From: Rhodanobacter soli | GTDB lineage: Bacteria; Pseudomonadota; Gammaproteobacteria; Xanthomonadales; Rhodanobacteraceae | Assembly (NCBI RefSeq): GCF_040548735.1 | Contig: NZ_JBEPSD010000003.1 | Coordinates: 372,001-436,000, forward strand | DNA: 64,000 nt | Reading direction: 5' to 3' | Part shown: in pieces, positions 833-37,406 of the stretch | Position numbering within the stretch: the stretch's first letter is position 1 | Layout of the letters: each line of letters begins with the position of its first letter | The notes under the pieces: generated by a model | Databases searched by the model: none | Told to the model about the DNA's origin: nothing | The model's input: only the letters and a program-made list of their open reading frames with translations | Position numbers and translations under genes: made by a program

Positions 833-848
833 ATGACAGCGCTGTCAT
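833..848. promoter_or_regulatory. LacI-family operator, TGACAGCGCTGTCA type (copy 1)
   Basis: Perfect 16-bp palindrome ATGACAGCGCTGTCAT with the central CG typical of LacI-family operators. The same 14-bp core recurs at 16910, 22267 and 22288, always before sugar-uptake or glycosidase genes. It lies 150 bp before the sugar porter start. The likely binder is one of the two LacI proteins in the window, most plausibly the one encoded just downstream of the porter. Confidence 0.8.
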
Positions 849-916
849 AGTGGCGGCCGACACGGGCAACCGATGCACCCTTCGGGGCAGGCGCCGGTGA
901 CTTTGCATTTTGCGCC

Positions 917-930
917 TGCATACGTATTCA
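917..930. promoter_or_regulatory. LacI-family operator, TGCATACGTATTCA type (copy 1)
   Basis: TGCATACGTATTCA is a near-perfect palindrome around a central CG. The identical 14-mer occurs at 15596, at 37128, and inverted at 37296, each time next to maltodextrin genes. Here it lies 68 bp before the sugar porter, downstream of a different operator class at 833. The porter therefore appears to be under two regulators. Confidence 0.8.
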
Positions 931-998
931 GCCGGACACGGTAAGGGCTGCAGTGCAGACTCGGGCGCATCTGGATGCCATGACGTTGGGGAGACGCG

Positions 999-2423: not shown

Positions 2424-2567
2424 GGATCATCTCTCGGCCAGCGTCCATGGCGACATGCACCTGCCTCGACCAGCGGCGGACGGTATACGACAAGCGGCGC
2501 GCAAACCGGCTAGGATTTGGCACGGACGGCATGGCGCCGTCGCAAAAGCTTGCGGGTCGCGCTGCGG

Positions 2568-3590
2568 ATGAAGGCAAAAGCCACATCGATCGACATTGCC
2601 CACCTGGCCGGGGTATCCCAGGCCACGGTGTCGCGCGCGCTGCGCGGCAGCCCACTGGTCAATGAGGAAACCCGGCGGCGCATCCAGGCCGCCGCCGAGC
2701 AGCTCAACTACAAGGTCGACAAGAACGCCTCCAACCTGCGCCGAATGCATTCCGGCACGCTGGCGCTGCTGTTCTTCGAGGACCCCACCGCCGACGAGTC
2801 GCACATCAACCCGTTCTTCCTGTCGATGCTGGGCTCGATCACCCGCGCCTGCGCGTTGCAGGGCTATGACCTGCTGATCTCGTTCCAGCAGTTCTCGCAC
2901 GACTGGCACGCCGACTTCGCCGACAGCAAGAAGGCCGACGGCCTGATCCTGCTCGGCTACGGCGACTACCTGGCCTACCGCGACAAGCTGGAGAAGCTGG
3001 TTGCCCAGGGCACCCGTTTCGTGCGCTGGGGCGCGGTGCTGCCGGACCAGCCCGGCGTGTCGATCGGCTGCGACAATTTCCGCGGCGGCCAGGCGGTGGC
3101 CGAACACCTGCTGGAGCGCGGCTGCCGCCGCATCGCCTTCCTCGGCGACGCGTCCAGCCACTACCCGGAGTTCTTCGGGCGCTATCGCGGCTACGTCGAT
3201 GCCCTGCAGCGGGCCGGGGTGGAAGTCGACCCCGCGCTGCAGGAAAACGCCGAGAGCACCGAGCGCTTCGGCTATGAGGCGATGCGCAGCCTGATCCTGC
3301 GCGAGGCCGGCTTCGACGCGGTATTCGCCGCCAGCGACCTGATCGCGATCGGTGCCATGCGCGCGCTCAGCGACCACGGCCTGCGCATACCGCAGGATGT
3401 GGCGCTGGCCGGCTTCGACGACATCCCCATGGCCAGCTTCGTGAATCCGCCGCTGACCACTGTCCTGCAGGACACCAAGCAGGCCGGCGAGGTACTGGTG
3501 GACAGCCTGCTCGGCCTGATCCGCGGCGAACCGGTGGACAGCGAGGTGCTGTCGGTGAAGCTGGTGGTGCGGCGGTCGAGCCTGCGCTGA
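2568..3590 (+). CDS. LacI-family transcriptional regulator (candidate regulator of the TGACAGCGCTGTCA sites)
   Basis: A 340-residue LacI/GalR-family repressor. The N-terminal helix-turn-helix (SIDIAHLAGVSQATVSRALRG, residues about 8-28) and hinge helix are followed by a periplasmic-binding-protein-like sugar-sensing domain from about residue 65 to the end, with ASDLIAIGAMRAL and VALAGFDDIPMASF typical of the family. I chose the ATG at 2568 because it directly precedes the helix-turn-helix. A TTG at 2550 and an ATG at 2517 are also in frame, and no strong ribosome binding site decides. It follows the sugar porter in the same direction. Assignment to the TGACAGCGCTGTCA operators is inference from this neighbourhood and from the other LacI protein having its own adjacent site. 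Confidence 0.88.
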   Translation: MKAKATSIDIAHLAGVSQATVSRALRGSPLVNEETRRRIQAAAEQLNYKVDKNASNLRRMHSGTLALLFFEDPTADESHINPFFLSMLGSITRACALQGYDLLISFQQFSHDWHADFADSKKADGLILLGYGDYLAYRDKLEKLVAQGTRFVRWGAVLPDQPGVSIGCDNFRGGQAVAEHLLERGCRRIAFLGDASSHYPEFFGRYRGYVDALQRAGVEVDPALQENAESTERFGYEAMRSLILREAGFDAVFAASDLIAIGAMRALSDHGLRIPQDVALAGFDDIPMASFVNPPLTTVLQDTKQAGEVLVDSLLGLIRGEPVDSEVLSVKLVVRRSSLR

Positions 3591-11720: not shown

Positions 11721-13234
11721 GTCGGGGTTCCGGTAGCGAGAGCGGCGGGCGGCGCGTAGACCGGCTCGCGCACGCGCAGGGTGAACAGGCCGGCGACCAG
11801 CAGGCAGGCGCCGCCCAGCGCCAGCGCCCAGATCGGCTGGTTGTGGAAGCACAGCCGCAGCAGCAGGCCGAGCACGCTGGCGGCGAGCAGCTGCGGGATC
11901 ACGATGAAGAAATTGAAGATGCCCATATAGACGCCCATTTTCGCTGCCGGCAGGTTGTCCGACAGCAAGGCGTACGGCAGCGACAGGATCGACGCCCAGG
12001 CGAAGCCCACGCCGACCATCGAGGCCAGCAGCCACTGCGGGTCGCGGATGACCAGGAACGACAGCAGTCCTGCGCCGCCCAGCCCCAGGTTCAGCAGGTG
12101 GCTGATGCGCAGGCCCCAGCGGCGCACCATCAGCGGGATCACCACCGCCGCCAGCGCGGCGAAACCGTTGTACGCGGCGAACAGCACGCCGACCCAGTTG
12201 GCGCCCTCGTTGTAGAGGGCCGAACCGACGTCGGTGGTGCCGTAGATGGTCTGCGTCACGCCCGGCGTGGTGTAGATCCACATCGCGAACAGCGCGAACC
12301 ACGAGAACAGCTGCACCCAGGCCAGCCGGCGCATCGGCCCGGGCATGCTGTACAGGTCGCCCATCACCTCGCGCAGCATGCCGCGGCTGCGGGTGAAGGT
12401 GAGCCAGGCAAACAGCAGGCCGAACACGATCAGGCCGCCGGCGAGCAGGTACAACTCCTTCTCCAGCGCGAAGTGGCGGATCGCGAACAGCACCAGCACG
12501 CCGGCCGCCAGCAGCAGCAGGCCGAGTTTCCAGGCGCGCGACGCATCCACCGCCGGCTGCGCGGCCACGTTGTCGGTGAACGACTGCAGCTGGGCGGGCG
12601 GGTACTCGCGCGTGCGCAGGATCGTCCACAGCACGGCGCCCAGCAGCACCGCGCCGCCGGCGTAGAACGCGTACTTCACCGTGTCGGGGATGCCGCCGTC
12701 CGCGGCCACGTTGGCCACGCCGAATTGCGCCAGGATCCACGGTAGCGCCGACGCCACCACCGCGCCCACGCCGATGAAGAAGCTCTGCATCGCGTAGCCG
12801 CTCGGGCGCTGCTGCGTGGGCAACTGGTCGCCGACGAAGGCGCGGAACGGCTCCATCGACACGTTGATCGAGGCGTCCAGGATCCACAGCAGGCCGGCGG
12901 CCATCCACAGCACCGGCGCGTTCGGCATCCACAGCAGGGCCAGCGACGCGAATACCGCGCCGATCAGGAAGTACGGCCGGCGCCGGCCCAGCCGGTTCCA
13001 GGTGCGGTCGGAGAAGTGGCCGATGATCGGCTGCACGATCAGCCCGGTCAGCGGCGCGGCGATCCACAGGGCCGGGATGTCGTTCACGTCGGCGCCCAGG
13101 GTCTGGAAGATCCGGCTGACGTTCGCGTTCTGCAACGCGAAGCCGAACTGCAGGCCGAGAAAGCCGAAGCACATGTTCCATATCTGCCAGAACGACAGCG
13201 CCGGTTTGTTGTTCAAGAGGGTGCCGTCCTTCAT
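11717..13234 (-). CDS. SLC45/GPH-type MFS transporter, probable maltose carrier
   Basis: A 505-residue inner-membrane transporter with about 12 hydrophobic segments. GHFSDRTWNRLGRRRPYFLIG (about residues 71-91) matches the glycoside-pentoside-hexuronide/SLC45 branch, which carries disaccharides such as maltose or sucrose with protons. The chosen ATG overlaps the upstream glycosidase stop by 4 bp (ATGA at 13231-13234), and its own stop overlaps the next start the same way. Position between two alpha-glucan enzymes, under the TGCATACGTATTCA operator, argues for maltose or maltodextrin uptake; the substrate is inferred. Confidence 0.92.
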   Translation of the reverse strand: MKDGTLLNNKPALSFWQIWNMCFGFLGLQFGFALQNANVSRIFQTLGADVNDIPALWIAAPLTGLIVQPIIGHFSDRTWNRLGRRRPYFLIGAVFASLALLWMPNAPVLWMAAGLLWILDASINVSMEPFRAFVGDQLPTQQRPSGYAMQSFFIGVGAVVASALPWILAQFGVANVAADGGIPDTVKYAFYAGGAVLLGAVLWTILRTREYPPAQLQSFTDNVAAQPAVDASRAWKLGLLLLAAGVLVLFAIRHFALEKELYLLAGGLIVFGLLFAWLTFTRSRGMLREVMGDLYSMPGPMRRLAWVQLFSWFALFAMWIYTTPGVTQTIYGTTDVGSALYNEGANWVGVLFAAYNGFAALAAVVIPLMVRRWGLRISHLLNLGLGGAGLLSFLVIRDPQWLLASMVGVGFAWASILSLPYALLSDNLPAAKMGVYMGIFNFFIVIPQLLAASVLGLLLRLCFHNQPIWALALGGACLLVAGLFTLRVREPVYAPPAALATGTPT

Positions 13235-15420
13235 GGGGTGGCGTGGCCGGTGGCGAGCGGGGCGATCAGCAGGGCGTGCACGTCGGCCTGGTTCAAGGCG
13301 CCGTCGCTGCCGCCGCTGCCGCCGGTGTAGTGGGCGAAGTGGCCGAGGTAGCTCATATTGAAGCCGTCCTCGAGCGTGAACCGGCAGGTGGCGCCCGCCC
13401 TGGCGTCGAAGCGGCCCCAGGTGGATGGCTGCGTGCGCACGCTGTGCGGCATCACGATCGGCAGACGCTGCTCGTCGCTGCCCGCGCAGCGGATCACCAG
13501 CATCTTCACCGCAGCGGTGATGCCGGTATTGATCGGGCCGTGGTCGTTCGCGTAGTCGAGCGCGACGCGATAGCTGCCGCCGGCCGATGCAGTCCACGAG
13601 CGTGGCCAGTTTCCGGCGACCTTCGCCACCTCGCCCACGCAGGTGGCAGGACTGTGCAGCGACTCCAGGCCGTGCGCATCCACACGCGTGGCGCTGAGGC
13701 AGGCGAGGCCGGGTTGCCGCGCGAGATGGCCGTCACCGTCGACGCTGCCGTGGACGCGGCCGTTGAGGTAGAGCCGCACCTTGCCGTCCGTCGTGATCTT
13801 CCAGCCGTCGCCATCGGCACGCAGCAGCGGCGCGGCAGGCGCGATGGGTGCGTACAGCGGCGCATCGGTGCGCAGCGGCGCGTCCGGCACCTGTATCGCC
13901 TTGAGCGTAACCGTGGTGGCCGTGCCGCGTGTGGCGGTGTGGTCGGCGACGAGCAGGTTGCCGGCGATCTTTTCGGGCAGTTGCAAGGTGATCTGCCGGT
14001 CGCGCAGGTCGAGCGTGATCGCGCGGCGCTGGCCGAACAGCATCGGCACCAGCGAGGTGGGCAGCTTCGGTTCCACCCGGCCGTCTTCGCCGAGACCGAA
14101 CACGCCTTCGGTGACCACCGCGAAATAGGCTGCCACCGACCACAGCTGTCGCGGGGAATTCACCACCGGGCCGCTGAGCTTGCCTTCGTCCACGTGCTGG
14201 CCCTGGGTGAGCAGCTCGTAGTTTTCCATGTTGGAACCGTACAGTGCCGCGCCGCGCATCACCGATTCGATCTCGTGCGCGATGCGCGCGGGCTGTTCCG
14301 TCATGCGTGCGGCGCGTAACGCGTACGCGCTGACGAACGGCCAGATAGCGCGGTTGTGGTAGATCGGCTGGTCGGAACGCTCGGGCCAGATCACCGGGCT
14401 GCCCGCGGGCCAGGTCGGATAGTTCGCCAGCGCCTGCCGCGCGCGTTCGCCGTCGGCCACGCCGCTGTCGATCGCCAGCGCAATGCCGAGCAGATCGTAG
14501 GTGTCGTAGGGCGTGCCGTCGCCGCCGATGTAGCTCATGTACATGCCGCGGTCGGCGCGCCAGAAATGCGCGTTGATCGCGCTCTTCAGCGCGGCGGCCT
14601 GGCTGCGGTAGCCGGCCGCCGTCTTCGCGTCGTGCCGCCCGTCGGCCAGCGTGGCGGCCAGTTGCAGCGCCTGGTAGTGCAGCACGTTGGTGGACAGCGC
14701 GTAGGACTGCGCGATGAAGGTCACCTCGTCCGCTGTCCACGCGGGGTAGCTCTGCTCGCGCCAGTCGAGGAACGAGGTCTCGCCGCGGTACAGGCCGAAC
14801 GTGGCGTCGAACGCGTATTGGCGATCCTGCGCCAGCGTGGCGCCAAGCGCCTTGTCGACGTCGCCGGCAAAGGCCTTGTCCCCGAGCAGGTGGCGCGCGC
14901 CGAGGAACCAAACCACGCGATCGGTGCTGATCGGCCAGCTGCCGCCGGAGCCGGTGTCCTGCATCGGGTACAGGCCCTGCGGCGCGGACGGAACGCGCAC
15001 GTCGGACAGCTTGAACTTCAACCCGTTGAGCGAGCGCGCCGGGTCGAAACGCCACAGGCCCAGGTCGATCGCGTAGGACAGGTCGCGCGTCCATACGTAC
15101 GGCCACTTCAGGCCGGTCACGAAGCACTGGCAGGGAATCGGCTGGCCGTGGTCGAACGCGCCGTCGCGGATCGCGCTGACCGAATCCAGCGCCAGGTCGT
15201 CCTGCGCCATCGCGAACAGACCGTCGAACAACGCGCTGGCGGTCTCGGTGCGCAGTGGCTGCGCGGCGATCACGCGCTCGCCGTATGGCCACGCCAGCGT
15301 GTAGTTGTGCTGTGCGTCGCGGCTGATGGCGACGTGCACGCCATGCCAGTCCAGCCCGTCGTGCCAGGCCGGTGCGCCCGCGCTGGCGGCCATCGCCGCG
15401 GTCAGCAGCAGGCTCAGCAT
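13231..15420 (-). CDS. Exported six-hairpin glycosidase-like protein, family unassigned
   Basis: A 729-residue secreted protein with a signal peptide (first about 16 residues). The central part has the layout of (alpha/alpha)6 glycosidases: KWPYVWTRDLSYAIDLGLW near 105-125, SFLDWREQSYPAWT near 215-230 and WPFVSAYALRAA near 350. The C-terminal 200 residues look like a beta-rich accessory module. These features recall GH15/GH63-like debranching or glucoamylase-type enzymes, but I cannot place it in a family. As first gene of the operon with a maltose carrier and an amylase, with an upstream operator of the maltodextrin type, an alpha-glucan substrate is likely. Weak ribosome binding site: a 15-codon leader frame ends over its ATG. 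Confidence 0.75.
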   Translation of the reverse strand: MLSLLLTAAMAASAGAPAWHDGLDWHGVHVAISRDAQHNYTLAWPYGERVIAAQPLRTETASALFDGLFAMAQDDLALDSVSAIRDGAFDHGQPIPCQCFVTGLKWPYVWTRDLSYAIDLGLWRFDPARSLNGLKFKLSDVRVPSAPQGLYPMQDTGSGGSWPISTDRVVWFLGARHLLGDKAFAGDVDKALGATLAQDRQYAFDATFGLYRGETSFLDWREQSYPAWTADEVTFIAQSYALSTNVLHYQALQLAATLADGRHDAKTAAGYRSQAAALKSAINAHFWRADRGMYMSYIGGDGTPYDTYDLLGIALAIDSGVADGERARQALANYPTWPAGSPVIWPERSDQPIYHNRAIWPFVSAYALRAARMTEQPARIAHEIESVMRGAALYGSNMENYELLTQGQHVDEGKLSGPVVNSPRQLWSVAAYFAVVTEGVFGLGEDGRVEPKLPTSLVPMLFGQRRAITLDLRDRQITLQLPEKIAGNLLVADHTATRGTATTVTLKAIQVPDAPLRTDAPLYAPIAPAAPLLRADGDGWKITTDGKVRLYLNGRVHGSVDGDGHLARQPGLACLSATRVDAHGLESLHSPATCVGEVAKVAGNWPRSWTASAGGSYRVALDYANDHGPINTGITAAVKMLVIRCAGSDEQRLPIVMPHSVRTQPSTWGRFDARAGATCRFTLEDGFNMSYLGHFAHYTGGSGGSDGALNQADVHALLIAPLATGHATP

Positions 15421-15595: not shown

Positions 15596-15609
15596 TGCAT
15601 ACGTATTCA
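15596..15609. promoter_or_regulatory. LacI-family operator, TGCATACGTATTCA type (copy 2)
   Basis: Exact copy of the 14-mer seen at 917. It lies between the divergent glycosidase operon and the LacI gene at 15728, so it probably serves both and makes the regulator autoregulated. Relative to the presumed minus-strand -10 box it is centred near -48, just upstream of a -35 position. Confidence 0.82.
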
Positions 15610-15727: not shown

Positions 15728-16738
15728 ATGCGGGTACGCCTCGAAGATGTGGCGCGCGCAGCGAGCGTATCGCCCAAGACGGTGTCCCGTGTGCTCAACG
15801 ACGAGGCCAACGTAAGCGATGCCACGCGCAAGCGCGTGCGCGCCGCTATGGAGGCGATGGATTACCGCCCGCATCCGTCGGCGCGCAGCCTGGCCGGGAA
15901 CCGCTCGTTCCTGGTGGCGATGCTGTACGACAACAACGACAACCCCGCCTCGACCTACCTCGCCGAGATCCAGGACGGCGTGCTCGAGGCCTGCGATGCG
16001 CATCGCTACAGCATGATGGTGCGCCCGCTGCGCATGCGCAGCGACGACTTCATCCGCCGCCTCGACGCGCTGATTTCAGACCACCACCCCGACGGCGTGG
16101 TGCTGACGCCGCCGATCACCGACTACGCGCCGCTGCTGAAACGCCTGCGCGAACGCGACGTGCCGTATGCCAGCGTGTCGCCGCAAAGCGGCGGCGGCAT
16201 CGGCGTGAGCATGGACGAGCAGGCGGCCGCGCGGGCGATCGTGGAGCACCTGCTGGCGCTGGGCCATCGGCGCATCGCCCATGTCGTCGGCATCGCCGAC
16301 CACGGCGCCAGCCGCTGGCGCCTGGCCGGCTATCGCGAGGCGATGGCTGCCGCGGGCCTGCCCGAGGACCCGGCACTGGTGGTGCAGGGCGCGTTTACGT
16401 TCGGCTCCGGCGTCACCGCCGCGCGCGAACTGTTCGCGCTGCAGCAGCGACCCACCGCCGTGTTCGCCGCCAACGACGACATGGCCACCGGCGTGATGTG
16501 GGCGGCCGGCGAGTATGGGCTGAAGGTGCCGCACGACCTTTCCGTCTGCGGCTTCGACGACACCCCGTTGGCGCGCCAGCTGTGGCCCGCGCTCACCACC
16601 ATCCAGCAACCCAGCCGCGAGATGGGCCGGATCGCCGCCCAGCAACTGCTGGGCGTGCTGCGCGGCCGCGGGCCCGGTGAACTGGTGCAGGTGCCGTTCG
16701 CCCTGCAGATCCGCGGCTCCACCGCCCGCGCTCCCTGA
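15728..16738 (+). CDS. LacI-family transcriptional regulator of the maltodextrin regulon (MalR-like)
   Basis: A 336-residue LacI/GalR regulator. The N-terminal helix-turn-helix is VRLEDVARAASVSPKTVSRVL (residues 2-22), followed by the hinge (YRPHPSARSLAG) and a sugar-binding effector domain with AVFAANDDMATGVMWA and LSVCGFDDTPLARQLWPALTT. GGGAG precedes the ATG. It is divergent from the glycosidase-carrier-amylase operon and shares with it the operator at 15596, so I infer it binds TGCATACGTATTCA. The same site at 37128 and 37296 would place the second maltodextrin locus under it. The effector is unknown. Confidence 0.9.
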   Translation: MRVRLEDVARAASVSPKTVSRVLNDEANVSDATRKRVRAAMEAMDYRPHPSARSLAGNRSFLVAMLYDNNDNPASTYLAEIQDGVLEACDAHRYSMMVRPLRMRSDDFIRRLDALISDHHPDGVVLTPPITDYAPLLKRLRERDVPYASVSPQSGGGIGVSMDEQAAARAIVEHLLALGHRRIAHVVGIADHGASRWRLAGYREAMAAAGLPEDPALVVQGAFTFGSGVTAARELFALQQRPTAVFAANDDMATGVMWAAGEYGLKVPHDLSVCGFDDTPLARQLWPALTTIQQPSREMGRIAAQQLLGVLRGRGPGELVQVPFALQIRGSTARAP

Positions 16739-16909: not shown

Positions 16910-16923
16910 TGACAGCGCTGTCA
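16910..16923. promoter_or_regulatory. LacI-family operator, TGACAGCGCTGTCA type (copy 2)
   Basis: A perfect 14-bp palindrome, identical to the core at 833, 58 bp before the GH3 gene. Its left half forms TTGACA (16909-16914), a consensus -35 element, so a bound repressor would cover the promoter. TATGCG lies 19 bp further as a poor -10 candidate. Confidence 0.82.
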
Positions 16924-16981: not shown

Positions 16982-19540
16982 GTGCCCTTGTCGTCCCCAT
17001 CGCCCCTGTTCCTGCGTCGCATTTTCCTGACCGCATCCCTCGCTGGCGCGCTGATCATGCCCATTCATTTCGTGCTGGCCGCGGACACCGCCGCCACGGT
17101 CCACCCCGCATCGTGGCCGCAGGGCCGCTGGCCGCTGCCGCCGGATCCCGCGCTCGAGGCCAGGGTCAGGGCGCTGCTGGCGAAGATGTCGGTGGAGGAC
17201 AAGGTCGGCCAGATGATCCAGGCCGACATCAAGTACGTGACCCCGGATGACGTGCGCACGTATCGTCTCGGCTCGATCCTGGCCGGCGGCAATTCCGGGC
17301 CGGACGGCCAGCAATACGGCACGGCCGCGCAGTGGCAGAAACTTTCCGATGCGTTCTACCGCGCGTCGATGGATACCTCGGGCGGGCGCCTGGCGATCCC
17401 GGTGCTGTTCGGCATCGACGCGGTGCATGGCCACAACAACCTGGTCGGCAGCACCTTGTTCCCGCAGAACGTGGGCCTGGGCGCCACCCGCGATCCGCAG
17501 TTGATCCACGCGATCGGCGACGTCACCGCGCGGGAACTGCGCGCCAGCGGCATCAACTGGACCTTCGCACCCACCCTCACGGTGCCGCAGGATGGCCGCT
17601 GGGGGCGTGCCTACGAGGGCTATTCGCAGAACCCGGCGCTGGTGGCGCAATACGCCAGCGCCGTGGTCGAGGGCCTGGAAGGCAGGCTCGGTACGCCGCA
17701 CTACCTGGATGCCGACCACGTGATCGCCACGGCCAAGCATTTCGTCGGCGATGGCGGCACCCGCGACGGCAAGGACCAGGGCGACGCCGAAGTCAGCGAA
17801 GCGGTGCTGCGCGACGTGCACGCGGCCGGTTATCCGCCGGCGATCGAGGCCGGCGTACAGGTGGTGATGGTCTCGTTCTCCAGCTGGAACGGGGTGAAGA
17901 TGGCCGGCAACAAGGCGCTGATCACCGACGTGCTGAAGGGCCGCATGGACTTCGGCGGCATCGTGCTGGGCGACTGGAACGCGCACGGCCAGGTGCCCGG
18001 CTGCACCAACGAGGATTGCCCGGTGGCGTACAACGCCGGGCTGGACATGCTGGAGGCGCCCGATTCCTGGAAGGGCCTGTACAAGAACACCCTGGCCGAG
18101 GTGAAGTCCGGGGTGATCCCGATGGCCCGCGTCGACGACGCGGTGAGCCGCATCCTGCGCGTGAAGCTGCGCCTGGGCATGTTCGAGGCCGGACTGCCGT
18201 CGGCCAACCCCTTGGTGATCAAGTCGGCGCAGGTGGTCGGCAGTCCCGCGCATCGCGCGCTGGCGCGCCGGGCCGTGCGCGAGTCGCTGGTGTTGCTGAA
18301 GAACGACGGCGTGCTGCCGATCGATCCGCGCAAGCACGTACTGGTCGCCGGCGACGGCGCCGACAACATCTCCAAGCAGAACGGCGGCTGGACGCTGACC
18401 TGGCAGGGCACCGGCCTGACCAATGCGAATTTCCCGGGCGCGACCTCGATCTTTGCCGGTATCCAGGCGCAGGTGAAGGCGGCCGGCGGCACCGCGGAGC
18501 TGTCGGTCGACGGCAGCTACAAGCAGAAACCCGACGTCGCCATCGTGGTGTTCGGCGAAGACCCTTATGCCGAATTCCAGGGCGACCTGCCGAACCTGGC
18601 GTACCGGCCCGGCAACGATCACGACCTCGACCTGCTGCGTCGCCTGCACGCGCAGGGCGTGCCGGTGGTGGCGGTGTTCCTCACCGGCCGGCCGCTATGG
18701 ATGAACCGCGAGATCAATGCATCGGATGCGTTCGTGGTGGCGTGGCTGCCCGGCAGCGAAGGCGAGGGCATCGCCGACGTGTTGCTGCGCACGCGCGACG
18801 GCCGCGTCGCGCATGACTTCCACGGCAAGCTGGCGTACGCGTGGCCGCGCACGGCGGTGCAGATTCCGGTCGCCGCGGCCGCGCGCGGCGAGCAGCCGCA
18901 GTTTCCCTACGGCTTCGGCCTGACCTATGCCGATCGCGGCGACACCGGCCCGCTGTCCGAGGATGCCGGGATCGAACTGAGCAGCGCGCGGGCCGGCGTC
19001 TACTTCACCCATGGCAAGCCGGCGCAGGGTTTCACGCTGCGCCTGACCGGCGCCAACGGCGCGGCCGCCAACGTCACCGCCACGCCCGCCGCGACGGCGG
19101 ATGGCAGCCTGCGCATCGTCGCGCTCGACTACAAGGCTCAGGAGGACGCGCGCAGCCTGGACTGGTCGGGCCGCGGCACCGCGCGCGCCGCGCTGGTGGC
19201 GCCGGCGCCGCTGGACGTGGAGCGCGAGACCAATGGCGACGTGATGCTGGTGACCACCCTGCGTATCGACGCGGTATCGGCGCAAGGCGCCACGGTCGGC
19301 GTCGCCTGCGGCAGCGGTTGCGGCGCCGCGGTGCCGATCGGCAAGCAGTTGGCTGCACTGCCGCGCGGGCAGTGGCTGCGCGTGGGCGTGCCGTTGAAAT
19401 GTTTCCGCGACGCCGGCGCCGACATGAGCAAGCTGGACCGGCCGTTCGAATGGACCAGCGGCCCGGGCGAACGCATCGCCGTCACCGACGTCTCGCTGGG
19501 CACGGTGGCGGACCGGACGCTGGACTGCCGCGCGCACTAG
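16982..19540 (+). CDS. Exported GH3 beta-glucosidase (1,4-beta-glucan glucohydrolase type)
   Basis: An 852-residue glycoside hydrolase family 3 exo-enzyme that removes glucose from beta-glucan oligosaccharides. The N-terminus has a twin-arginine-like signal (LRRIFLTASLAGAL). The GH3 barrel covers about 60-400, with KHFVGDGGT and nucleophile D331 in VLGDWNAHG. The second domain (about 420-640) carries the acid/base E526 in FGEDPYAE. A C-terminal region of about 190 residues (beta-rich, to SLGTVADRTLDCRAH) follows. The start is GTG at 16982 with GGAG 7 bases upstream; an ATG 5 bases earlier is out of frame. The operator at 16910 links it to the receptor/halogenase pair downstream. Specificity (1,3 or 1,4) is not decidable. 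Confidence 0.94.
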   Translation: MPLSSPSPLFLRRIFLTASLAGALIMPIHFVLAADTAATVHPASWPQGRWPLPPDPALEARVRALLAKMSVEDKVGQMIQADIKYVTPDDVRTYRLGSILAGGNSGPDGQQYGTAAQWQKLSDAFYRASMDTSGGRLAIPVLFGIDAVHGHNNLVGSTLFPQNVGLGATRDPQLIHAIGDVTARELRASGINWTFAPTLTVPQDGRWGRAYEGYSQNPALVAQYASAVVEGLEGRLGTPHYLDADHVIATAKHFVGDGGTRDGKDQGDAEVSEAVLRDVHAAGYPPAIEAGVQVVMVSFSSWNGVKMAGNKALITDVLKGRMDFGGIVLGDWNAHGQVPGCTNEDCPVAYNAGLDMLEAPDSWKGLYKNTLAEVKSGVIPMARVDDAVSRILRVKLRLGMFEAGLPSANPLVIKSAQVVGSPAHRALARRAVRESLVLLKNDGVLPIDPRKHVLVAGDGADNISKQNGGWTLTWQGTGLTNANFPGATSIFAGIQAQVKAAGGTAELSVDGSYKQKPDVAIVVFGEDPYAEFQGDLPNLAYRPGNDHDLDLLRRLHAQGVPVVAVFLTGRPLWMNREINASDAFVVAWLPGSEGEGIADVLLRTRDGRVAHDFHGKLAYAWPRTAVQIPVAAAARGEQPQFPYGFGLTYADRGDTGPLSEDAGIELSSARAGVYFTHGKPAQGFTLRLTGANGAAANVTATPAATADGSLRIVALDYKAQEDARSLDWSGRGTARAALVAPAPLDVERETNGDVMLVTTLRIDAVSAQGATVGVACGSGCGAAVPIGKQLAALPRGQWLRVGVPLKCFRDAGADMSKLDRPFEWTSGPGERIAVTDVSLGTVADRTLDCRAH

Positions 19541-19798: not shown

Positions 19799-22204
19799 CT
19801 AGAACCACACGCCGACGTTGACGCCGTAAGTGCGCGGCGGCAGGTATTGCGAGGTGTAGGCGAAGCTGCCGTCGGGCAGGGCGAAACGGCCGGCACTGGT
19901 GCGCACCTTGCTGTCGCTGACGTTCTGCACGTAGGCGCCGATCCACCAGCGGTCCTGCGGCTCGTTGTAGCGCAGCGAGATGTCGCCGCGGCCGTACGCC
20001 TTCTGCTTGTCGCCGTCGCCCAGGTTGAACGTGCTCAGCCATTGCGAGCTCTGGTACTGCGCGGAGATGCGCGGAGTTAGCCGGCCGCCGTTGGCCAGGC
20101 GGAAGTCGTGCTCGTAGATCGCGGTGAGCGAGGCGTTCGGCGCATGCGGCAGGTCGTTGCCGCTGACGTCGATGCAGGCGCTGATGCCGGACGCCGGGTC
20201 GCAGGCGGGCAGGCCCTGGTAGTCGTTGCTGCCGGCATACTTGAGCGTGCCCAGTTCCTTCTTCGGGATCGCCGAGAACACCAGGTTGAGGCGGTCGTTC
20301 TCGCTGGACAGCGCCAGCTCCGATTCGAAGCCCATCACCTTGGTGGTGCCCTTGACGTTGGAGAAGCCCAGCCCGCGGTTGCCGTCGGGGTAGGTGATCG
20401 GCGCGGCCAACTGGAAGTTCTTGAACTGCTCGTAGTAGATCGCGCTGTTCCACGTCAGGTGGCCGTCGAGGAAGCTGAACTTCGAGCCGACTTCGTAGTT
20501 GGTCAGCGTCTCCGGTTCGTACAGCGTGCCGGCGTCCTGGGTGCCGCCGGACTTGTAGCCGGTGGATACGCTGGCATACAGCAGGCCGTGCTGGCCCATG
20601 TCGGTATCCAGCCTGGCCAGCCAGGTGACCTTGCTCTTGTCGTACTTCGCATCGTTGACGGTGGAGACGTTGAAGCCCACGTTGCCCGGTTCGACGTCCG
20701 GCGAGATCGGCACCTGCGGCACCGTCGGGTCGTAGGCCCAGCCCCAGCCGCGGCCACCCTCGTTCTTCTTGACGTCGTTGGACCAGCGCGCGCCGCCGGT
20801 CAGGCGCAGGCCGTCGGTGATGTGCCAGGTGGCCTGGCCGAAGAAGGCGGTGGTTTCCACGGTCTCCTTCGGCTGGATGAACGAACCCTGCCAGGCCACG
20901 GTGCCCTGCGCGGTGCCGTTGAGGATCGGGATGTCGAAGCGGATGTTGTTGTCCTCCGCCGCGTAGTAGGCGCCGAGGATCCAGTCCACCGCGTTGTCGC
21001 CGGCCGACTTCAGGTCCAGTTCGTGGCTGTAGTTCTTGTAGTTGGAGAAGTTGGTGCGGTCGGCCTGGTAGGACGCGCCGGTGGTGAAGCTGGTCGGCAC
21101 CTGGACGCCGTTGTCCTGGTCGAAGTTGCTCTTGCCGGAGAAGCGGTTGAAGCCGGCGACGTAGCTCAGCGTCATCGCGTCGTTGATGTTGAAGTCCATG
21201 CGGCTGCGCACCGTGTGCGAGTCGCGCTTCAGGTAGGGCGCGGTGTCGATCAGGGCCGACCAGAAATCCTGGCCTGCGCGCGGTTGCTGCATCAGGCTCA
21301 TGCCGGGCGTGCCGCGGTCGCGGAAGTATTCGTAGGACAGGTTCCAGGTGAACGCGTCGCTCGGCTGCCACATTGCGCTGACGCGCGCCGCCGACTGGTC
21401 CTGCGCGTTGTACTTGTCGCCGCCGGTCACGTAGTTGCTGGCGTTGATCGGCTGGAATGTGGCGAGCGTGCCGCCGCTGGCCAGGTAGGCCGCCTGCTGT
21501 TGCGCCACGCTGGGCAGTTGCTGCGACGGGTTCTGGAAATCCACGTAGCCGTCATGCTGCTCCTGCGCCATCGCCACGCGCATCGCGAAGGTGCTGCTGA
21601 TCGGCAGATTCACCGTGGCGCGGGTGCCGACGTGGCTGTAGTTGCCGGCCTCGATCTGTGCATTGCCATAGAAGCCGCTGGTGTCCGGCTTGCCGGTCTG
21701 GAAATTGACCACGCCGGCGGTGGAGTTGCGCCCCCACAGCGTGCCCTGCGGACCGCGCAATACTTCCACGCTTTCGATGTCCAGCAGCAGGCCGGCGGCC
21801 GCTTCCGGGCGCGGCGAATACACACCGTCGATGAACATCGCCACTTCCGGATCGGCATACTCGGTCTTGGCGCTGTCGTTGCCGATGCCGCGCATGGTCA
21901 GGGTGACCACGCCATGATCGCCTTGCGACGTGGCCTGGAAGCCCGGCACCAGCTTGGTGATGTCCTGCACCGTCATCACCCGCTCCTTGTCGAGCGTGTC
22001 GGCGCTGATCGCGCTGATCGCGACCGGAGTCTTCTGCAGCGGAGTCTCGCGTTTGGTCGCGGTGACCTGGACGCTGTCCAGATCCTTCACCTTCCTGCTG
22101 GCCGCCGTGTCTTTCGGGGCAGGGTCCTGTGCCGCAGCGTAGACGGCGCCCGAGGCAAATATGGCGGTCATGGCGACGTACAAAGCCGAGTAGCGTAATT
22201 TCAT
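19799..22204 (-). CDS. TonB-dependent outer-membrane receptor (beta-glucoside locus)
   Basis: An 801-residue outer-membrane receptor for energy-dependent uptake. A signal peptide (MKLRYSALYVAMTAIFASGAVYA) is followed by a TonB box region (DSVQVTATKRE, about 45-56), the plug domain (about 60-170, with VEVLRGPQGTLWGRNSTAGVV) and a beta-barrel to the C-terminal phenylalanine (TYGVNVGVWF). The ATG at 22204 is preceded by GGAGAGGG; an upstream in-frame ATG lacks a signal peptide. Divergent from the halogenase-like gene, sharing two TGACAGCGCTGTCA sites with it, and next to GH3, so I infer import of beta-glucan oligosaccharides. Its plug has the shape of general siderophore/sugar receptors, so the substrate is not certain. 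Confidence 0.92.
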   Translation of the reverse strand: MKLRYSALYVAMTAIFASGAVYAAAQDPAPKDTAASRKVKDLDSVQVTATKRETPLQKTPVAISAISADTLDKERVMTVQDITKLVPGFQATSQGDHGVVTLTMRGIGNDSAKTEYADPEVAMFIDGVYSPRPEAAAGLLLDIESVEVLRGPQGTLWGRNSTAGVVNFQTGKPDTSGFYGNAQIEAGNYSHVGTRATVNLPISSTFAMRVAMAQEQHDGYVDFQNPSQQLPSVAQQQAAYLASGGTLATFQPINASNYVTGGDKYNAQDQSAARVSAMWQPSDAFTWNLSYEYFRDRGTPGMSLMQQPRAGQDFWSALIDTAPYLKRDSHTVRSRMDFNINDAMTLSYVAGFNRFSGKSNFDQDNGVQVPTSFTTGASYQADRTNFSNYKNYSHELDLKSAGDNAVDWILGAYYAAEDNNIRFDIPILNGTAQGTVAWQGSFIQPKETVETTAFFGQATWHITDGLRLTGGARWSNDVKKNEGGRGWGWAYDPTVPQVPISPDVEPGNVGFNVSTVNDAKYDKSKVTWLARLDTDMGQHGLLYASVSTGYKSGGTQDAGTLYEPETLTNYEVGSKFSFLDGHLTWNSAIYYEQFKNFQLAAPITYPDGNRGLGFSNVKGTTKVMGFESELALSSENDRLNLVFSAIPKKELGTLKYAGSNDYQGLPACDPASGISACIDVSGNDLPHAPNASLTAIYEHDFRLANGGRLTPRISAQYQSSQWLSTFNLGDGDKQKAYGRGDISLRYNEPQDRWWIGAYVQNVSDSKVRTSAGRFALPDGSFAYTSQYLPPRTYGVNVGVWF

Positions 22205-22266
22205 TTCACCCTCTCCCCAAATTGTCGTGGACATGCAGTGGTCGTGGACATGCGGTAATCTTTGCA

Positions 22267-22280
22267 TGACAGCGCTGTCA
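22267..22280. promoter_or_regulatory. LacI-family operator, TGACAGCGCTGTCA type (copy 3)
   Basis: A perfect palindrome in the 167-bp divergent region. Read toward the receptor, it supplies TTGACA as a -35 element, with TTACCG 17 bp downstream, so repression by promoter occlusion is likely. It lies 21 bp (two helical turns) from the next copy. Confidence 0.85.
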
Positions 22281-22287
22281 AATTAAA

Positions 22288-22301
22288 TGACAGCGCTGTC
22301 A
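22288..22301. promoter_or_regulatory. LacI-family operator, TGACAGCGCTGTCA type (copy 4)
   Basis: Second perfect palindrome, start-to-start 21 bp from copy 3, so both face the same side of the helix and could bind two dimers cooperatively. It is the one nearer to the halogenase-like gene, 70 bp before its ATG. Confidence 0.85.
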
Positions 22302-22371
22302 TCGAGGGCGATCCTACTGCGAAATTCGACAATTGGCTTGTTGCGCAGCAACAAGCGGGGAGGGGAGTGGC

Positions 22372-23955
22372 ATGGCGCGCATTCAGAGGATTCTGGTCGT
22401 GGGCGGCGGTACTGCCGGCTGGCTGACGGCCTGTTATCTGGCCAAGGCGTTGAATACCGCGGCGCCGGAAAGCATCCGGGTCGAACTGGTCGAATCGCCG
22501 AACATCGGCTTGCTCGGCGTGGGCGAGGCCACGTTTCCGTCGATCCGCGGCACGCTGGCCGCGATCGGCCTGGACGAGCGCCGCTTCCTGGTCGGTGCCA
22601 GCGCAACCTACAAGCAGGGCATCCAGTACGTGAACTGGGTGCGCCCGCCCGGCGAACCGGGGCCGGACCGTTTCTTCCACCCGTTCAGCCTGCCTAGCCA
22701 GCGCAGCGGCAGCCCGGAGCTGTTGCCGTACTGGCTGCTCGGCGGCGCCCCCGGCGGCATGGCCTTCGCCGAGGCGGTGACCATGCAGCAACGCCTGATC
22801 GATCACGGCCGGGCGCCGAAGCGCGCCACCGATCCCGATTACCAGGGACCGATGAATCACGCCTATCACTTCGATGCGGCCTGCTTCGCCGCCGTGCTGG
22901 CCGAGCATGGCCAGAGCCTGGGCGTCAGGCGTCACCTGGCCACGGTGGAACGGGCCGAACTGGACGGATCAGGCGCGATCGCGCGCATCGTCACCAGAGA
23001 AATCGGCGAACTGAGCGCCGACCTCTACGTGGATTGCACCGGCCTGCGCGGCGCCCTGATCGGCGGAGCGATGCAGTCGCCGTTCCACAGCCGGCGCGAC
23101 GTGCTGTTCGCCGACCGCGCGGTGGCGTTGCAGGTGCCGTATCCACGCCCAGACGCGCCGATCCTGCCGTTCACCCGCGCCACCGCGCAGGAAGCCGGCT
23201 GGATCTGGGACATCGGCCTGCAGAAACGGCGCGGCATCGGTTACGTCTATTCGTCGCGGCATAGCGATGCGAACCGCGCGGAAGAAGTCATTCGCAACTA
23301 CGTTGGCGAGCAGGCGGCGGGACTGGAAGCACTGCATATCAAGTTCGAGACCGGCTATCGACCGGAACACTGGCGTCGCAACTGCGTGGCGGTGGGGTTG
23401 GCCGGCGGCTTCGTCGAACCGCTGGAATCCACCGGCATTGCCCTGGTCGAACTGGCCGCCTACCTGATCACCCATCTGTTGCCGGGCGACGTCGACGACA
23501 TGGAACGCACCGCGCGTCGCTTCAACGACATGATGGTGGCGCGCTACGAGCGCGTCATCGATTTCATCAAGATGCACTACTGCCTCACGCAGCGCCGTGA
23601 CAGCGCGTTCTGGATCGACAACACCGACCCGGCCGGCATCCCGCAGACCCTGCAGGACAGACTTGCGCTATGGCGCCATCGCCCGCCGCACCGGCTGGAC
23701 TTCGTCACCGACCTGGAGATGTTCATGCCGGCCAGCTGGCAATACGTGCTGTACGGCATGGAGTTCCGCACCGACCTCGAACCGATGCGCAGCGCCTACC
23801 CGCAGATGGAGGCGGCGCAGCGCGAGTTCGCGATGATCCGGCAGATGGCCGGCCATGCGTTGAACGACCTCCCGGACCACCGTGCCCTGGTCGAGCAATT
23901 GTGCCGCGAGCAAGTGCAGCGGAAGATGGACAGGCTTGTCGGGGCGGATGGCTGA
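22372..23955 (+). CDS. Tryptophan-halogenase-family flavoprotein (beta-glucoside locus)
   Basis: A 527-residue FAD-dependent protein of the tryptophan halogenase family. The N-terminal FAD site is VVGGGTAGW; the catalytic lysine is K81 (ATYKQG) and the active-site glutamate E352 (PLESTGI). The WxWxIP motif is present as W277-I-W-D-I-G282, with glycine for proline. The start at 22372 has GGGGAGGGG just upstream. Related enzymes from Brevundimonas and Xanthomonas halogenate indole in vitro, and such genes often sit beside TonB receptors, but their physiological role is unknown. No flavin reductase, which the reaction needs, is encoded nearby. Co-control with the divergent receptor through the two operators is the strongest functional clue. 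Confidence 0.88.
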   Translation: MARIQRILVVGGGTAGWLTACYLAKALNTAAPESIRVELVESPNIGLLGVGEATFPSIRGTLAAIGLDERRFLVGASATYKQGIQYVNWVRPPGEPGPDRFFHPFSLPSQRSGSPELLPYWLLGGAPGGMAFAEAVTMQQRLIDHGRAPKRATDPDYQGPMNHAYHFDAACFAAVLAEHGQSLGVRRHLATVERAELDGSGAIARIVTREIGELSADLYVDCTGLRGALIGGAMQSPFHSRRDVLFADRAVALQVPYPRPDAPILPFTRATAQEAGWIWDIGLQKRRGIGYVYSSRHSDANRAEEVIRNYVGEQAAGLEALHIKFETGYRPEHWRRNCVAVGLAGGFVEPLESTGIALVELAAYLITHLLPGDVDDMERTARRFNDMMVARYERVIDFIKMHYCLTQRRDSAFWIDNTDPAGIPQTLQDRLALWRHRPPHRLDFVTDLEMFMPASWQYVLYGMEFRTDLEPMRSAYPQMEAAQREFAMIRQMAGHALNDLPDHRALVEQLCREQVQRKMDRLVGADG

Positions 23956-34089: not shown

Positions 34090-36975
34090 TTACTGGAACT
34101 TGTACGAGACGCCGATATCGTAGCGGCGGCCGTAACGCTCCCACGTCAGCACCTGGCGTGGGTCGTCGTTCTGGTAGGTGATGAAGGTCTTGTTGGACAG
34201 GTTGGAGCCCTGCACGATGAAGGTCAGACCCTTCAGGCTGCCGCTATCGATGCTGTAGCTGACCTGGGCATCGTAGGTGCTGCCGCCCTGGATGGTCTGC
34301 TCGATGCGCGACGCGCTGATGCCCGACACCTCGCCCAGGAAGCTCGAACGGTAGCTGTCGCTGATGCGGGCTTCGAAGCCGCTGTGCTGGTAGTACAGCG
34401 TGGCGTTGGCGACCCACTTCGACAGGCCCGGCACGGTGATCGGCGTGCTGTTGCCGGCGAACACCAGCGAGCTCTTGGTGCGGTTGCCGGTGAGGATCGC
34501 TCCGAAGCCGTCGAGTGCCGGCGTGACCAGGTTGAACGGCAGGTTCAAGGTCACCTGGGCGCCCTTCACGTAGCCGTGGCCGTCGTTGGTCGGGCCGGAG
34601 ACGATGCCCTGGGTGGTGCCGAGCTGGGCCAGCTGGTCCGGCGTCAGGCCGAACGGCAGGAAGGCGCTGAAGTCGTACAGGAAGGCTGCGTTCGGGTTGA
34701 TGTAGTCCTTCAGCTTGAGGAAGTAGCCCGACAGTGCGACGTAGCCACCGCCGCCGCTGCGGCAGATGTCCGAGTTCTTCGCTTCGGCGGCGTTGCACTC
34801 GTAGCCGTTGCCGCCGGAGAAGTAGTGCTCGTAGCTGACGTTGTAGTTGTCGGCCATGGTCGGCTTGAGCTTGGCGTTGCCGCCCGAGGCGCTGAAGTAC
34901 GCCTGGTTCGGGTCGGTGTTCTGCAGACGGGTGAAGTTGCCGCTCACCCCCAGGCTGGCGTTCATCTGATCCATGCGCGGGCGGGCCAACGTACGCGCGG
35001 CGCTGACGCGCAGGTCATCGTTGTCGCCGAAGCCGAAGATCAGGTTGGCGCTGGGCAGGACCTTGGTGTAGCTGGTGCTGCCGACCACCGGGATCAGCGT
35101 GATCGCGTTGCCGGTGATCGCGCTGCCGGGCGCCACGCGTTCGCCGGTCGAACGCTGCGAGGTGTGCTGTGCCTGCACGCCGAAGTTGCCGCGCAGGCTG
35201 ACGCCGCCAAGGTAGGTGTCGAGGTTGAACTGCACGAACGGGGTCAGCGTCTTTTCGCGCACGTTCCAGTTCGGTGGCATCGCCAGCGACGAGCCGAAGG
35301 TAGGCACGCTTACCAGGGTGCCGTCGCTGATCAGATCGAACGGGTTGTAGCAGGTCTGCGCACCCACGCCCATCCAGGCCAGCGGGCTGCAGCTGGTGCC
35401 GCTGAACGGCGCGGTCTCGACGGCGCTACCGCCGCTGATGGTGCCGCCGCCAAGGGTCAGGAAGCTCTGGTCGATGTGGTAGGTCTTGTCGCGCGTGCTG
35501 TGCGCCACGCCGAACTCCAGGCTGGAGAACGGACCGCTGGAGAAGCTGCGCTCAGCGCTCAGGCGCAGGTTGGCCAGGTAATCCACGGTGTGCGGCGCAT
35601 TGATGAAGCCGGCCTGCACCACGTCGTTGCCGCCGCCCCAACCCTGCGGATCGGTCAGCACCATGCCGTTGCCGTAATCCAGCGACGGGTTGACGTAGAA
35701 CAGTCCGTCGTTGCGCTCGACGAAACCGAGCGTGTCCCTGGCGCCGTTGTTCGCGCCGAAGGCCGTGCCGGAATAGCTTTCGAGATTGACGTCGCGGCGC
35801 GTGGCGCGCGAATAATTCGCGTCGAGATCGGCCGTCCAGTCCTCGTTGATGGTGAACTTGTTGTCCCAGTTGAAGTTGTAGACCCGGGCGCTGGTGCTGT
35901 TGTAGTCGTTGCGGATGACGGCCTTGACGCCGTCGTAGGTGCCGCTCTGCACGAAGCCGTTCTGCACGTTGCCGCCCGGCTGCAGTGTCGCGTTGCCCCA
36001 GAACAGCGGGAACTCCATGCCCTTGGCCTGCTGCACTTCCTTGAAGTTGTCGTAGGTGAGGTCGACGACGCCGTTGTACCAGTCGTTCGGCTGCCACTGC
36101 ACGGTGGCCAGCACGCCGCGACGCTTCATCGTGTCGGAGATGCCGTAGTTCTTCGCGCCACCGATCACGGCGTCACCATTCGCGTCGCCCGGGTAGCCCC
36201 ACGGCGCCTGGTGCTGGATCTGCGCGGGGTTGGATTCCATGTCCACGCCCAGGGTGACGCCGAGGGTGTGGTCGGCGAACTGGTGCACCCACACGCCGTT
36301 GACGTTGTAGCCCTTGTCGCTGACGCCGGGGCCACTCGCCAGCTGGGACATGTCGTTCCAGATGTAGTGGGCATTCAGCGCCGCCTCGGGACCGCTCTTT
36401 TCCAGCGGGCGGATGGTGTGCATGTCGACGGTGCCGGTGAGGCCCTGGCCGATCAGGTCGGCCTGCGGGGTCAGGTGCACCACCACGTTGTCAAACCAGC
36501 TCGACGGGTACTGGTCGAACTGCACGTCGCGGTTGTTGGACGTGGAAACCTGCTGGCCGCCGTTGACCAGCGCGGTGGAGAAATCCGGGCCCAGGCCGTG
36601 GATGGTCAGCACCTGCGGGCGACCGCTGACGGTCTGCACGGCGAGGCCGGGTAGGCGACCGAGGGTATCGGCGATGCTCACGCCGGGCAGCTTGCCGACC
36701 TGTTCGGCCGACACGGCCTCGACGATGCTGCTGGCATTGCGCTTGAGCGCGGTGGAGTTCTCGATGCTGCTGACGAAGCCGTTGACCTCGACGGCCTGCA
36801 GCTTCTTCGTCTTGTGCTTGCCGTCGGTGTCCTTGTCGGTCGACGCCGGCTGGGCCTGATCTTGCGTGTCCTGCTGCTGGCCGGCCGAGGGTGCGGTCCC
36901 GGCGTACGCCGTGGCGCAGACGCCAAGGCACACCGATGCAATCGCCATCGCCAGCACGTTATGTTTCAGAACCAT
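34090..36975 (-). CDS. TonB-dependent receptor of the Xanthomonas/Caulobacter type, probable maltodextrin receptor
   Basis: A 961-residue outer-membrane receptor. The signal peptide (MVLKHNVLAMAIASVCLGVCATAYA) is followed by a Lys-rich linker, a TonB box-like QAVEVNGF, the plug (about 70-190; SIADTLGRLPGLAVQ and IHGLGPDFSTALVNG) and a long barrel ending GVSYKFQ. The plug pattern is that of the large Xanthomonas/Caulobacter receptor subfamily, whose known member MalA imports maltodextrins. The ATG at 36975 has GGAGGGGAG upstream; a longer frame lacks a signal peptide. The operator at 37128 lies 152 bp before the start, and a transcription-attenuating hairpin follows the gene. Maltodextrin is inferred from the linked GH13/GH31 genes. 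Confidence 0.93.
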   Translation of the reverse strand: MVLKHNVLAMAIASVCLGVCATAYAGTAPSAGQQQDTQDQAQPASTDKDTDGKHKTKKLQAVEVNGFVSSIENSTALKRNASSIVEAVSAEQVGKLPGVSIADTLGRLPGLAVQTVSGRPQVLTIHGLGPDFSTALVNGGQQVSTSNNRDVQFDQYPSSWFDNVVVHLTPQADLIGQGLTGTVDMHTIRPLEKSGPEAALNAHYIWNDMSQLASGPGVSDKGYNVNGVWVHQFADHTLGVTLGVDMESNPAQIQHQAPWGYPGDANGDAVIGGAKNYGISDTMKRRGVLATVQWQPNDWYNGVVDLTYDNFKEVQQAKGMEFPLFWGNATLQPGGNVQNGFVQSGTYDGVKAVIRNDYNSTSARVYNFNWDNKFTINEDWTADLDANYSRATRRDVNLESYSGTAFGANNGARDTLGFVERNDGLFYVNPSLDYGNGMVLTDPQGWGGGNDVVQAGFINAPHTVDYLANLRLSAERSFSSGPFSSLEFGVAHSTRDKTYHIDQSFLTLGGGTISGGSAVETAPFSGTSCSPLAWMGVGAQTCYNPFDLISDGTLVSVPTFGSSLAMPPNWNVREKTLTPFVQFNLDTYLGGVSLRGNFGVQAQHTSQRSTGERVAPGSAITGNAITLIPVVGSTSYTKVLPSANLIFGFGDNDDLRVSAARTLARPRMDQMNASLGVSGNFTRLQNTDPNQAYFSASGGNAKLKPTMADNYNVSYEHYFSGGNGYECNAAEAKNSDICRSGGGGYVALSGYFLKLKDYINPNAAFLYDFSAFLPFGLTPDQLAQLGTTQGIVSGPTNDGHGYVKGAQVTLNLPFNLVTPALDGFGAILTGNRTKSSLVFAGNSTPITVPGLSKWVANATLYYQHSGFEARISDSYRSSFLGEVSGISASRIEQTIQGGSTYDAQVSYSIDSGSLKGLTFIVQGSNLSNKTFITYQNDDPRQVLTWERYGRRYDIGVSYKFQ

Positions 36976-37090
36976 GTACTCCCCTCCCACAAAGGTGTGT
37001 CGCCGTCGATCTCGGTTATTGGATTCCCCCGCGCTTCCGTCGGCGACGACCGTCGGCAGGTGCGCTACCGAGCTTTTCGGCGGCGTGTTT

Positions 37091-37100
37091 GCATGGTAGG
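37091..37100 (-). promoter_or_regulatory. Probable -10 region of the TonB receptor promoter
   Basis: CCTACCATGC on the minus strand, containing TACCAT. It is identical in sequence and in its 27-bp distance from the operator to the box at 15559-15568. The sequence between operator and box is not conserved, which makes the shared box meaningful. Confidence 0.5.
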
Positions 37101-37127
37101 CCGGCATTTCCGCAGCGAAGCATTTTC

Positions 37128-37141
37128 TGCATACGTATTCA
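37128..37141. promoter_or_regulatory. LacI-family operator, TGCATACGTATTCA type (copy 3)
   Basis: Exact copy of the 14-mer at 917 and 15596, placed upstream of the TonB receptor promoter on its -35 side. Confidence 0.83.
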
Positions 37142-37295: not shown

Positions 37296-37309
37296 TGAAT
37301 ACGTATGCA
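37296..37309. promoter_or_regulatory. LacI-family operator, TGCATACGTATTCA type (copy 4, inverted)
   Basis: The reverse complement, TGAATACGTATGCA, on the plus strand, 97 bp before the GH13 glucosidase start. A TAAGCT hexamer 30 bp further matches the position of the -10 boxes at the other sites. The two operators of this region are 168 bp apart (16 helical turns), so looping between them is possible. Confidence 0.82.
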
Positions 37310-37406
37310 CATCCGTGCTGGTCGCAACGGAGCTGCAGCTAAGCTGATCGGCATTCAACGACGGGCGATCGAATGTGCCCGCCTCATGCTGAGGGGACGC
37401 GTTCAA

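Follow-up and report, generated by a model that had tools for sequence, protein, structure and literature searches.

Why should the gene of a single sugar importer be preceded by operators of two different regulators? The question is raised by a 64,000-nt stretch of the Rhodanobacter soli genome (NZ_JBEPSD010000003.1, positions 372,001–436,000; hereafter the window), in which two palindromes stand just upstream of a gene for a sugar porter of the major facilitator superfamily (MFS; 999–2423, + strand). The upstream one, S1 (TGACAGCGCTGTCA, 834–847), is a perfect 14-bp palindrome, and the downstream one, S2 (TGCATACGTATTCA, 917–930), has one mismatched pair; both are given without strand, and both are even palindromes with a central CG, which is the form of LacI-family operators in the available text of a published survey (PMC4052901). 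The first-pass annotation of this DNA had reported a perfect copy of each before the porter, and both are indeed there. S2 starts 82 bp upstream of the porter start codon, inside the usual LacI-operator band of 140–30 bp, and S1 starts 165 bp upstream, slightly outside it. We consider it probable that two LacI-family regulons share the porter, with LacI-B acting at S1 on a distal promoter P1 and LacI-A acting at S2 on a proximal promoter P2, most likely in an OR logic.

The two regulators in question are encoded nearby, and they are the only LacI-family genes in the examined part of the window: lacI-A lies directly behind the porter (2517–3590, + strand; likely start 2568), and lacI-B lies before a glycoside hydrolase (GH) gene of family GH3 (15728–16738, + strand). 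Each product has a LacI helix-turn-helix (PF00356) and a periplasmic-binding-protein-like domain (Peripla_BP_3, PF13377). Among 233 genomes of the family Rhodanobacteraceae, LacI-B and S1 were both present in 86 and both missing from 131, with the regulator only in 3 and the site only in 13; the corresponding counts for LacI-A and S2 were 152, 67, 8 and 6. Fisher tests gave p = 2e-45 for LacI-B/S1 and 7e-42 for LacI-A/S2 (Fisher p-values here are uncorrected for kinship), and the cross-pairings of regulator and site were far weaker. Moreover, LacI-A with S2 occurs without LacI-B and S1 in 71 genomes, and LacI-B with S1 occurs without LacI-A and S2 in 17. Because of this double dissociation we assign S1 to LacI-B and S2 to LacI-A, so that two separate regulons, each with its predicted reader, are well supported. 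Within the genus, LacI-A is nearly universal and LacI-B patchy, and exact S1 sites are confined to genomes with LacI-B. Exceptions to the pairing are nine genomes of genus g2 (G045, G047–G049, G051, G053, G057, G058 and G060), which carry an exact S1 and no close LacI-B ortholog; presumably another regulator reads S1 there.

Both sites are also strictly conserved where they occur before the porter. Every one of the 35 porter copies found in the genus has S2 upstream, 80–91 bp ahead of the start, and the porters of Dyella and Frateuria have it too; thus control through S2 is old. S1 precedes 13 of the 35 copies, in 12 genomes. The exact arrangement of S1, a gap of 60–90 bp and S2 was found in 12 of the 233 genomes, all of them Rhodanobacter, so both operators are kept before the same gene in several species of one genus. 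In a set of 10 distinct promoters with S1 the site itself has 98.6% identity, compared with 27–34% in the 20-bp blocks flanking it, and S2 is 100% identical in its 35 copies, compared with ∼30% in its upstream flank. This near-full identity beside such divergent flanks indicates that both sites are held by selection, and it is conservation, rather than the counting of copies, that excludes a chance origin. The idea that S2 is kept merely since the region is young was rejected on the same comparison. Membership of the porter in two separate LacI regulons is well supported by the family-wide double dissociation and by this conservation, and the check proposed with it, whether both sites are kept in relatives, came out differently for the two: S2 is universal before the porter, and S1 is patchy and found only alongside the beta-glucoside regulator. 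Two other palindromes were seen in this region. Three S1-bearing genomes (L130/G011, L042/G013 and L046/G005) have a further conserved LacI-like palindrome, GTAATCGTTTACCGG, between S1 and S2, possibly the site of a third porter regulator, and in one genome (G018, L134) CAATACGTATTG, a perfect palindrome containing the S2 core ATACGTAT, stands directly before S1 and overlaps its edge.

The other copies show which genes the porter is grouped with. Further exact copies of S1 in the window are at 16910, 22267 and 22288 only, and in the 3.9-Mb Rhodanobacter genome these four copies are the only ones even with one mismatch allowed; reversed S1, as a control, had no match in the same genome-wide search. 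The copy at 16910–16923 precedes the GH3 gene (16982–19540, + strand), whose product has a signal-like N-terminus and is closest to exo-1,3/1,4-beta-glucanase. The other two, 21 bp apart (22267–22280 and 22288–22301, spanning 22267–22301), lie between the genes of a TonB-dependent receptor (19799–22267, − strand; likely start ∼22204) and a tryptophan-halogenase-like flavoprotein (22333–23955, + strand), both of the beta-glucoside group. Further exact copies of S2 in the window are at 15596, 37128 and 37296. The last two (37128–37141 and 37296–37309) precede, respectively, a TonB-dependent receptor gene of the maltodextrin group (34090–37107, − strand) and a gene for a GH13 alpha-glucosidase-like enzyme (37305–39029, + strand, as the longest frame; the true start is probably downstream). 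The copy at 15596–15609 lies in the gap common to lacI-B itself and a divergent GH-like gene of the S2 group, with an (alpha/alpha)6-barrel-like product and weak Pfam matches (13231–15420, − strand). This copy probably serves the GH-like gene. Most Rhodanobacter genomes with LacI-B, this one included, have S2 ∼119 bp ahead of lacI-B, and control of lacI-B by LacI-A through it is possible.

The S1 copies therefore lie where the first-pass annotation had put them, at beta-glucoside genes. Its placing of all other S2 copies at maltodextrin genes holds for the exact copies, with the refinement that one shares its gap with lacI-B, and fails for mismatched ones: genome-wide, S2 has four exact copies and one site with a single mismatch elsewhere in the genome, before zwf (TGCATACGAATTCA; L155:6193–6206; G000:C1:1772192), and an S2-like palindrome with two mismatches lies outside the window before pyk, near gapA (TGCATACGAATGCA; L156:6247–6260; G000:C6:6247). 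For these palindromes at central-carbon genes, either LacI-A may reach into glucose catabolism or a 43% LacI paralog (C3:166374) may read a near-identical motif.

The surroundings of the two operators suggest tandem modules, S1 on a distal promoter and S2 beside a conserved proximal one. The putative P2 (933–961, + strand) consists of CGGACA (933–938), a 17-bp spacer and CAGACT (956–961). In the genus the order after S2 is CGGACA, 17 bp, CAGA(C/A)T and then CG, at near-constant spacing from S2; CGGACA is kept in nearly all copies, and CAGAATCG of P2 is present in Dyella and Luteimonas as well. The centre of S2 falls at about −44 relative to the inferred start of P2, and in genomes without S1 and the whole stretch around it the P2 hexamers are still conserved beside S2. 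The candidate P1 (823–851, + strand) is TTGGCG-N17-CATAGT; S1 lies in the spacer and reaches the second hexamer. This string, TTGGCGAAnnnTGACAGCGCTGTCATAGT, is present in 5 genomes; most other S1-bearing genomes have TATGCT 8–11 bp before S1, and a consensus scan scored another hexamer pair, at 805–834, instead. Whichever reading of P1 is taken, S1 covers part of the core promoter or of the start region. At the GH3 gene S1 overlaps the −35-like TTGACA itself (ATTGACAGCGCTGTCA, invariant in ∼40 loci), which by its sequence is a repressor layout. In 19 loci of the GH-like gene, CCTACCATGC stands behind S2 at a constant distance, the maltodextrin TonB receptor of the window shows the same string with the same spacing, and at both genes S2 lies upstream of a weak −35. 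The spacing of S1 and S2 varies between 79 and 101 bp with no helical rule, and the idea that the two sites are fixed partners in a loop was rejected on this ground. Downstream, no terminator was seen between the porter and lacI-A; lacI-A is probably not transcribed from the porter promoter alone, because a conserved TAGGAT-like element of its own lies behind the porter (TAGGAT at 2511–2516, + strand, a probable −10; CTAGGATTCGG-like strings are found between the two genes in most genomes).

As for what is imported, the porter belongs to the MFS sugar porters (PF00083, Sugar_tr, 356.7 bits against a cut-off of 22.3, E = 2.5e-106; TIGR00879, 363.2 bits against 237.8), with XylE and GlcP among its best solved relatives. 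It scored below the cut-off of the glucose-specific equivalog models (GlcP, 250.8 bits against 750) and of the XylE model (375.7 against 608). Because of this kinship with the XylE/GlcP/GLUT family, and because signal-like N-termini are present in the GH3, GH31, GH39 and GH-like proteins, several of them alpha-glucan enzymes, it is plausible that the porter is a shared importer of glucose released by periplasmic enzymes. LacI-A at S2 would link the porter to the maltodextrin genes, as the older control, at P2 directly downstream of S2, and LacI-B at S1 would link it to the beta-glucan genes. Since S1 would overlap the core of P1, a distal promoter distinct from P2, bound LacI-B should block P1; products of beta-glucan breakdown would free LacI-B from S1 and open P1, and a maltodextrin signal through LacI-A would open P2. 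Either pathway would then increase uptake of the hexose, probably glucose, freed by its periplasmic enzymes.

S1 is a patchy add-on to the older control by S2. It is present at the porter in 12 of the 21 Rhodanobacter genomes with LacI-B and in none of the 13 without (Fisher p = 6e-4), and on the porter tree its state changes at least 5–6 times. Relatives without S1 have unrelated sequence upstream of S2, often the end of the neighbouring gene. In independent pairs of genomes differing in both traits, S1 and LacI-B went together in 4–5 of 7 pairs and in opposite directions in none. Promoter elements around S1 differ between groups of genomes, and the possibility that S1 arose twice before the porter was considered; it is not claimed, because the groups may share an ancestral YATGCT ∼10 bp before S1.

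Several observations weigh against a shared porter with two promoters and OR logic. The phylogenetic pair test gave p = 0.06–0.125, above 0.05 with too few pairs, and nine porter-bearing genomes with LacI-B have no S1 at the porter. A replacement porter was found in one of the four such genomes whose LacI-B locus was examined: in G004 another porter, with 36% identity, begins ∼57 bp after the GH3 gene (L270:12326–13636) and thus lies within the S1-controlled GH3 unit, and there was no second porter near the S1 sites of G012, G025 or G040, so that replacement as a general rule was dropped. Control of the porter through S1 is therefore dispensable. Moreover, P1 is not pinned down, its hexamers differing between genomes; LacI-A at S2 could roadblock P1 transcripts, with a partly AND-like outcome; and S2 is centred at about −44 to −49 from the inferred starts, a position as suited to an activator as to a repressor. 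The roadblock leads to an arrangement of the AND type with the same two regulators, in which either a single promoter is controlled through both sites or LacI-A, bound at S2, halts the elongation of P1 transcripts. We regard this as unlikely. S2 lies 79–101 bp downstream of S1, so bound LacI-A would be in the path of P1 transcripts, and P1 is not firmly located, but the variable spacing argues against a joint complex or a loop of fixed geometry, in most relatives P2 and S2 are intact in the absence of S1, and an importer that can serve either pathway would gain little from requiring both sugars. Because P2 is separable from P1 and S1, because the spacing varies, and on these physiological grounds, OR appears the likelier of the two logics that the first-pass annotation had offered. 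Activation of P2 by LacI-A, with the porter joining an activated P2 to a repressed P1, is compatible with OR and is a possibility to be taken seriously, if not the expected one. The distance from S2 down to the −10-like element is constant at each of three promoters: 25 bp at the porter (most of 42 sequences), and 29 bp both at the GH-like gene (19 loci) and, in the window only, at the maltodextrin TonB receptor; at the latter two genes the −35 elements are poorly conserved and S2, unlike S1, lies outside the core promoter. P2 of the porter, however, has the conserved −35 CGGACA, which an S2-bound dimer would partly cover, and most studied LacI-family regulators are repressors.

A more specific version is held with greater doubt, namely that P1 with S1 is a plug-in module repeatedly lost or gained before the shared importer, in step with the patchy beta-glucan cluster and its regulator, so that a promoter repressed by LacI-B and one activated by LacI-A together would form the OR gate. 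Two further alternatives concern the operators themselves. Reading of S1 or S2 by other LacI paralogs, for example a 41% paralog at C1:1734474 or the 43% paralog mentioned above, is very unlikely: the former adjoins an S1-like palindrome, TGACAACGTTGTCA, and the nine g2 genomes carry S1 without a close LacI-B, but genomes of the genus that keep the 41% paralog and lack LacI-B have no exact S1, and the palindrome has other bases than S1 on either side of the central CG. Reading of S1 by the 41% paralog was disfavoured on these two grounds. The palindrome TGACAACGTTGTCA, which differs from S1 only at those bases, was observed near the 41% LacI-B paralog, an MFS-like protein and a TonB-receptor-like protein (L153, G000:C1:1732738; G000:C2:301994 and 302127). 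That S1 at the porter is a relic or a chance copy without effect could explain its patchiness and the nine LacI-B genomes lacking it there, but we consider this extremely improbable, since S1 keeps its near-full identity between divergent flanks in 10 distinct sequences, is never seen at the porter without LacI-B and has only four copies in the genome; S1 as a chance copy was rejected on its conservation and copy number. Two separate regulons meeting at the porter, most likely by OR, thus remains the reading we prefer.

Arrangements of this kind have precedents. The deo operon of E. coli has tandem promoters, deoP1 and deoP2, and two repressors, DeoR and CytR, one of which is LacI-type. The likeness lies in two promoters before one transcription unit and in two repressors; the deo repressors belong to two families and act on one operon, whereas in Rhodanobacter two LacI-family regulators of separate regulons meet at the porter and one of the modules is gained or lost along with its regulator. 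The window contains, within 1–39 kb, all parts of a carbohydrate-utilization locus with TonB-dependent receptor (CUT locus): two TonB receptors, GH genes, the porter and two LacI regulators. Such loci with a porter and a LacI-type regulator are known from Xanthomonas, including one for maltodextrin (PMC1790865). The maltodextrin CUT locus of X. campestris, with the maltose-induced TonB receptor XCC2469, is comparable by description, and no second LacI operator is described at its transporter in the available part of that paper (PMC1790865). Its sucrose locus (suxA, TonB receptor; suxB; suxC, porter; suxR, LacI-type regulator) likewise joins a porter to an adjoining LacI-type regulator, but as described there it has one regulator for one sugar, whereas the Rhodanobacter porter has two regulators (PMC1790865). 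In the survey of Ravcheev et al. (2014), ∼20% of LacI-regulated operons have more than one site and pairs 21–22 bp apart are typical, which the S1 pair at 22267 and 22288 resembles; in its available text multiple sites are treated as those of one regulator, no two-regulator porter is described and 'Xanthomonad' does not appear (PMC4052901). The MalR paralogs of Bifidobacterium are likewise several LacI-family proteins on the same carbohydrate genes, but they share one motif, whereas here both motifs and regulators are distinct (PMC4746261). Our literature search on the S1 sequence, on LacI or maltose control in Rhodanobacter and on promoters with two LacI regulators found nothing on point. Tandem promoters with two repressors are already known in principle and LacI operons with multiple sites are common; the present case shows an unusually clear presence/absence pattern.

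For the Rhodanobacteraceae the analysis fixes the motif–regulator pairs of two LacI regulators. It also offers a clean example from nature of a transporter at which two separate sugar regulons converge, with an old link through S2 and a patchy one through S1. Close relatives with and without S1 and LacI-B provide a system for studying how a regulon gains or drops a shared target, and the same relatives are suited to asking which of the two logics, OR or AND, bacteria use at a shared exit.
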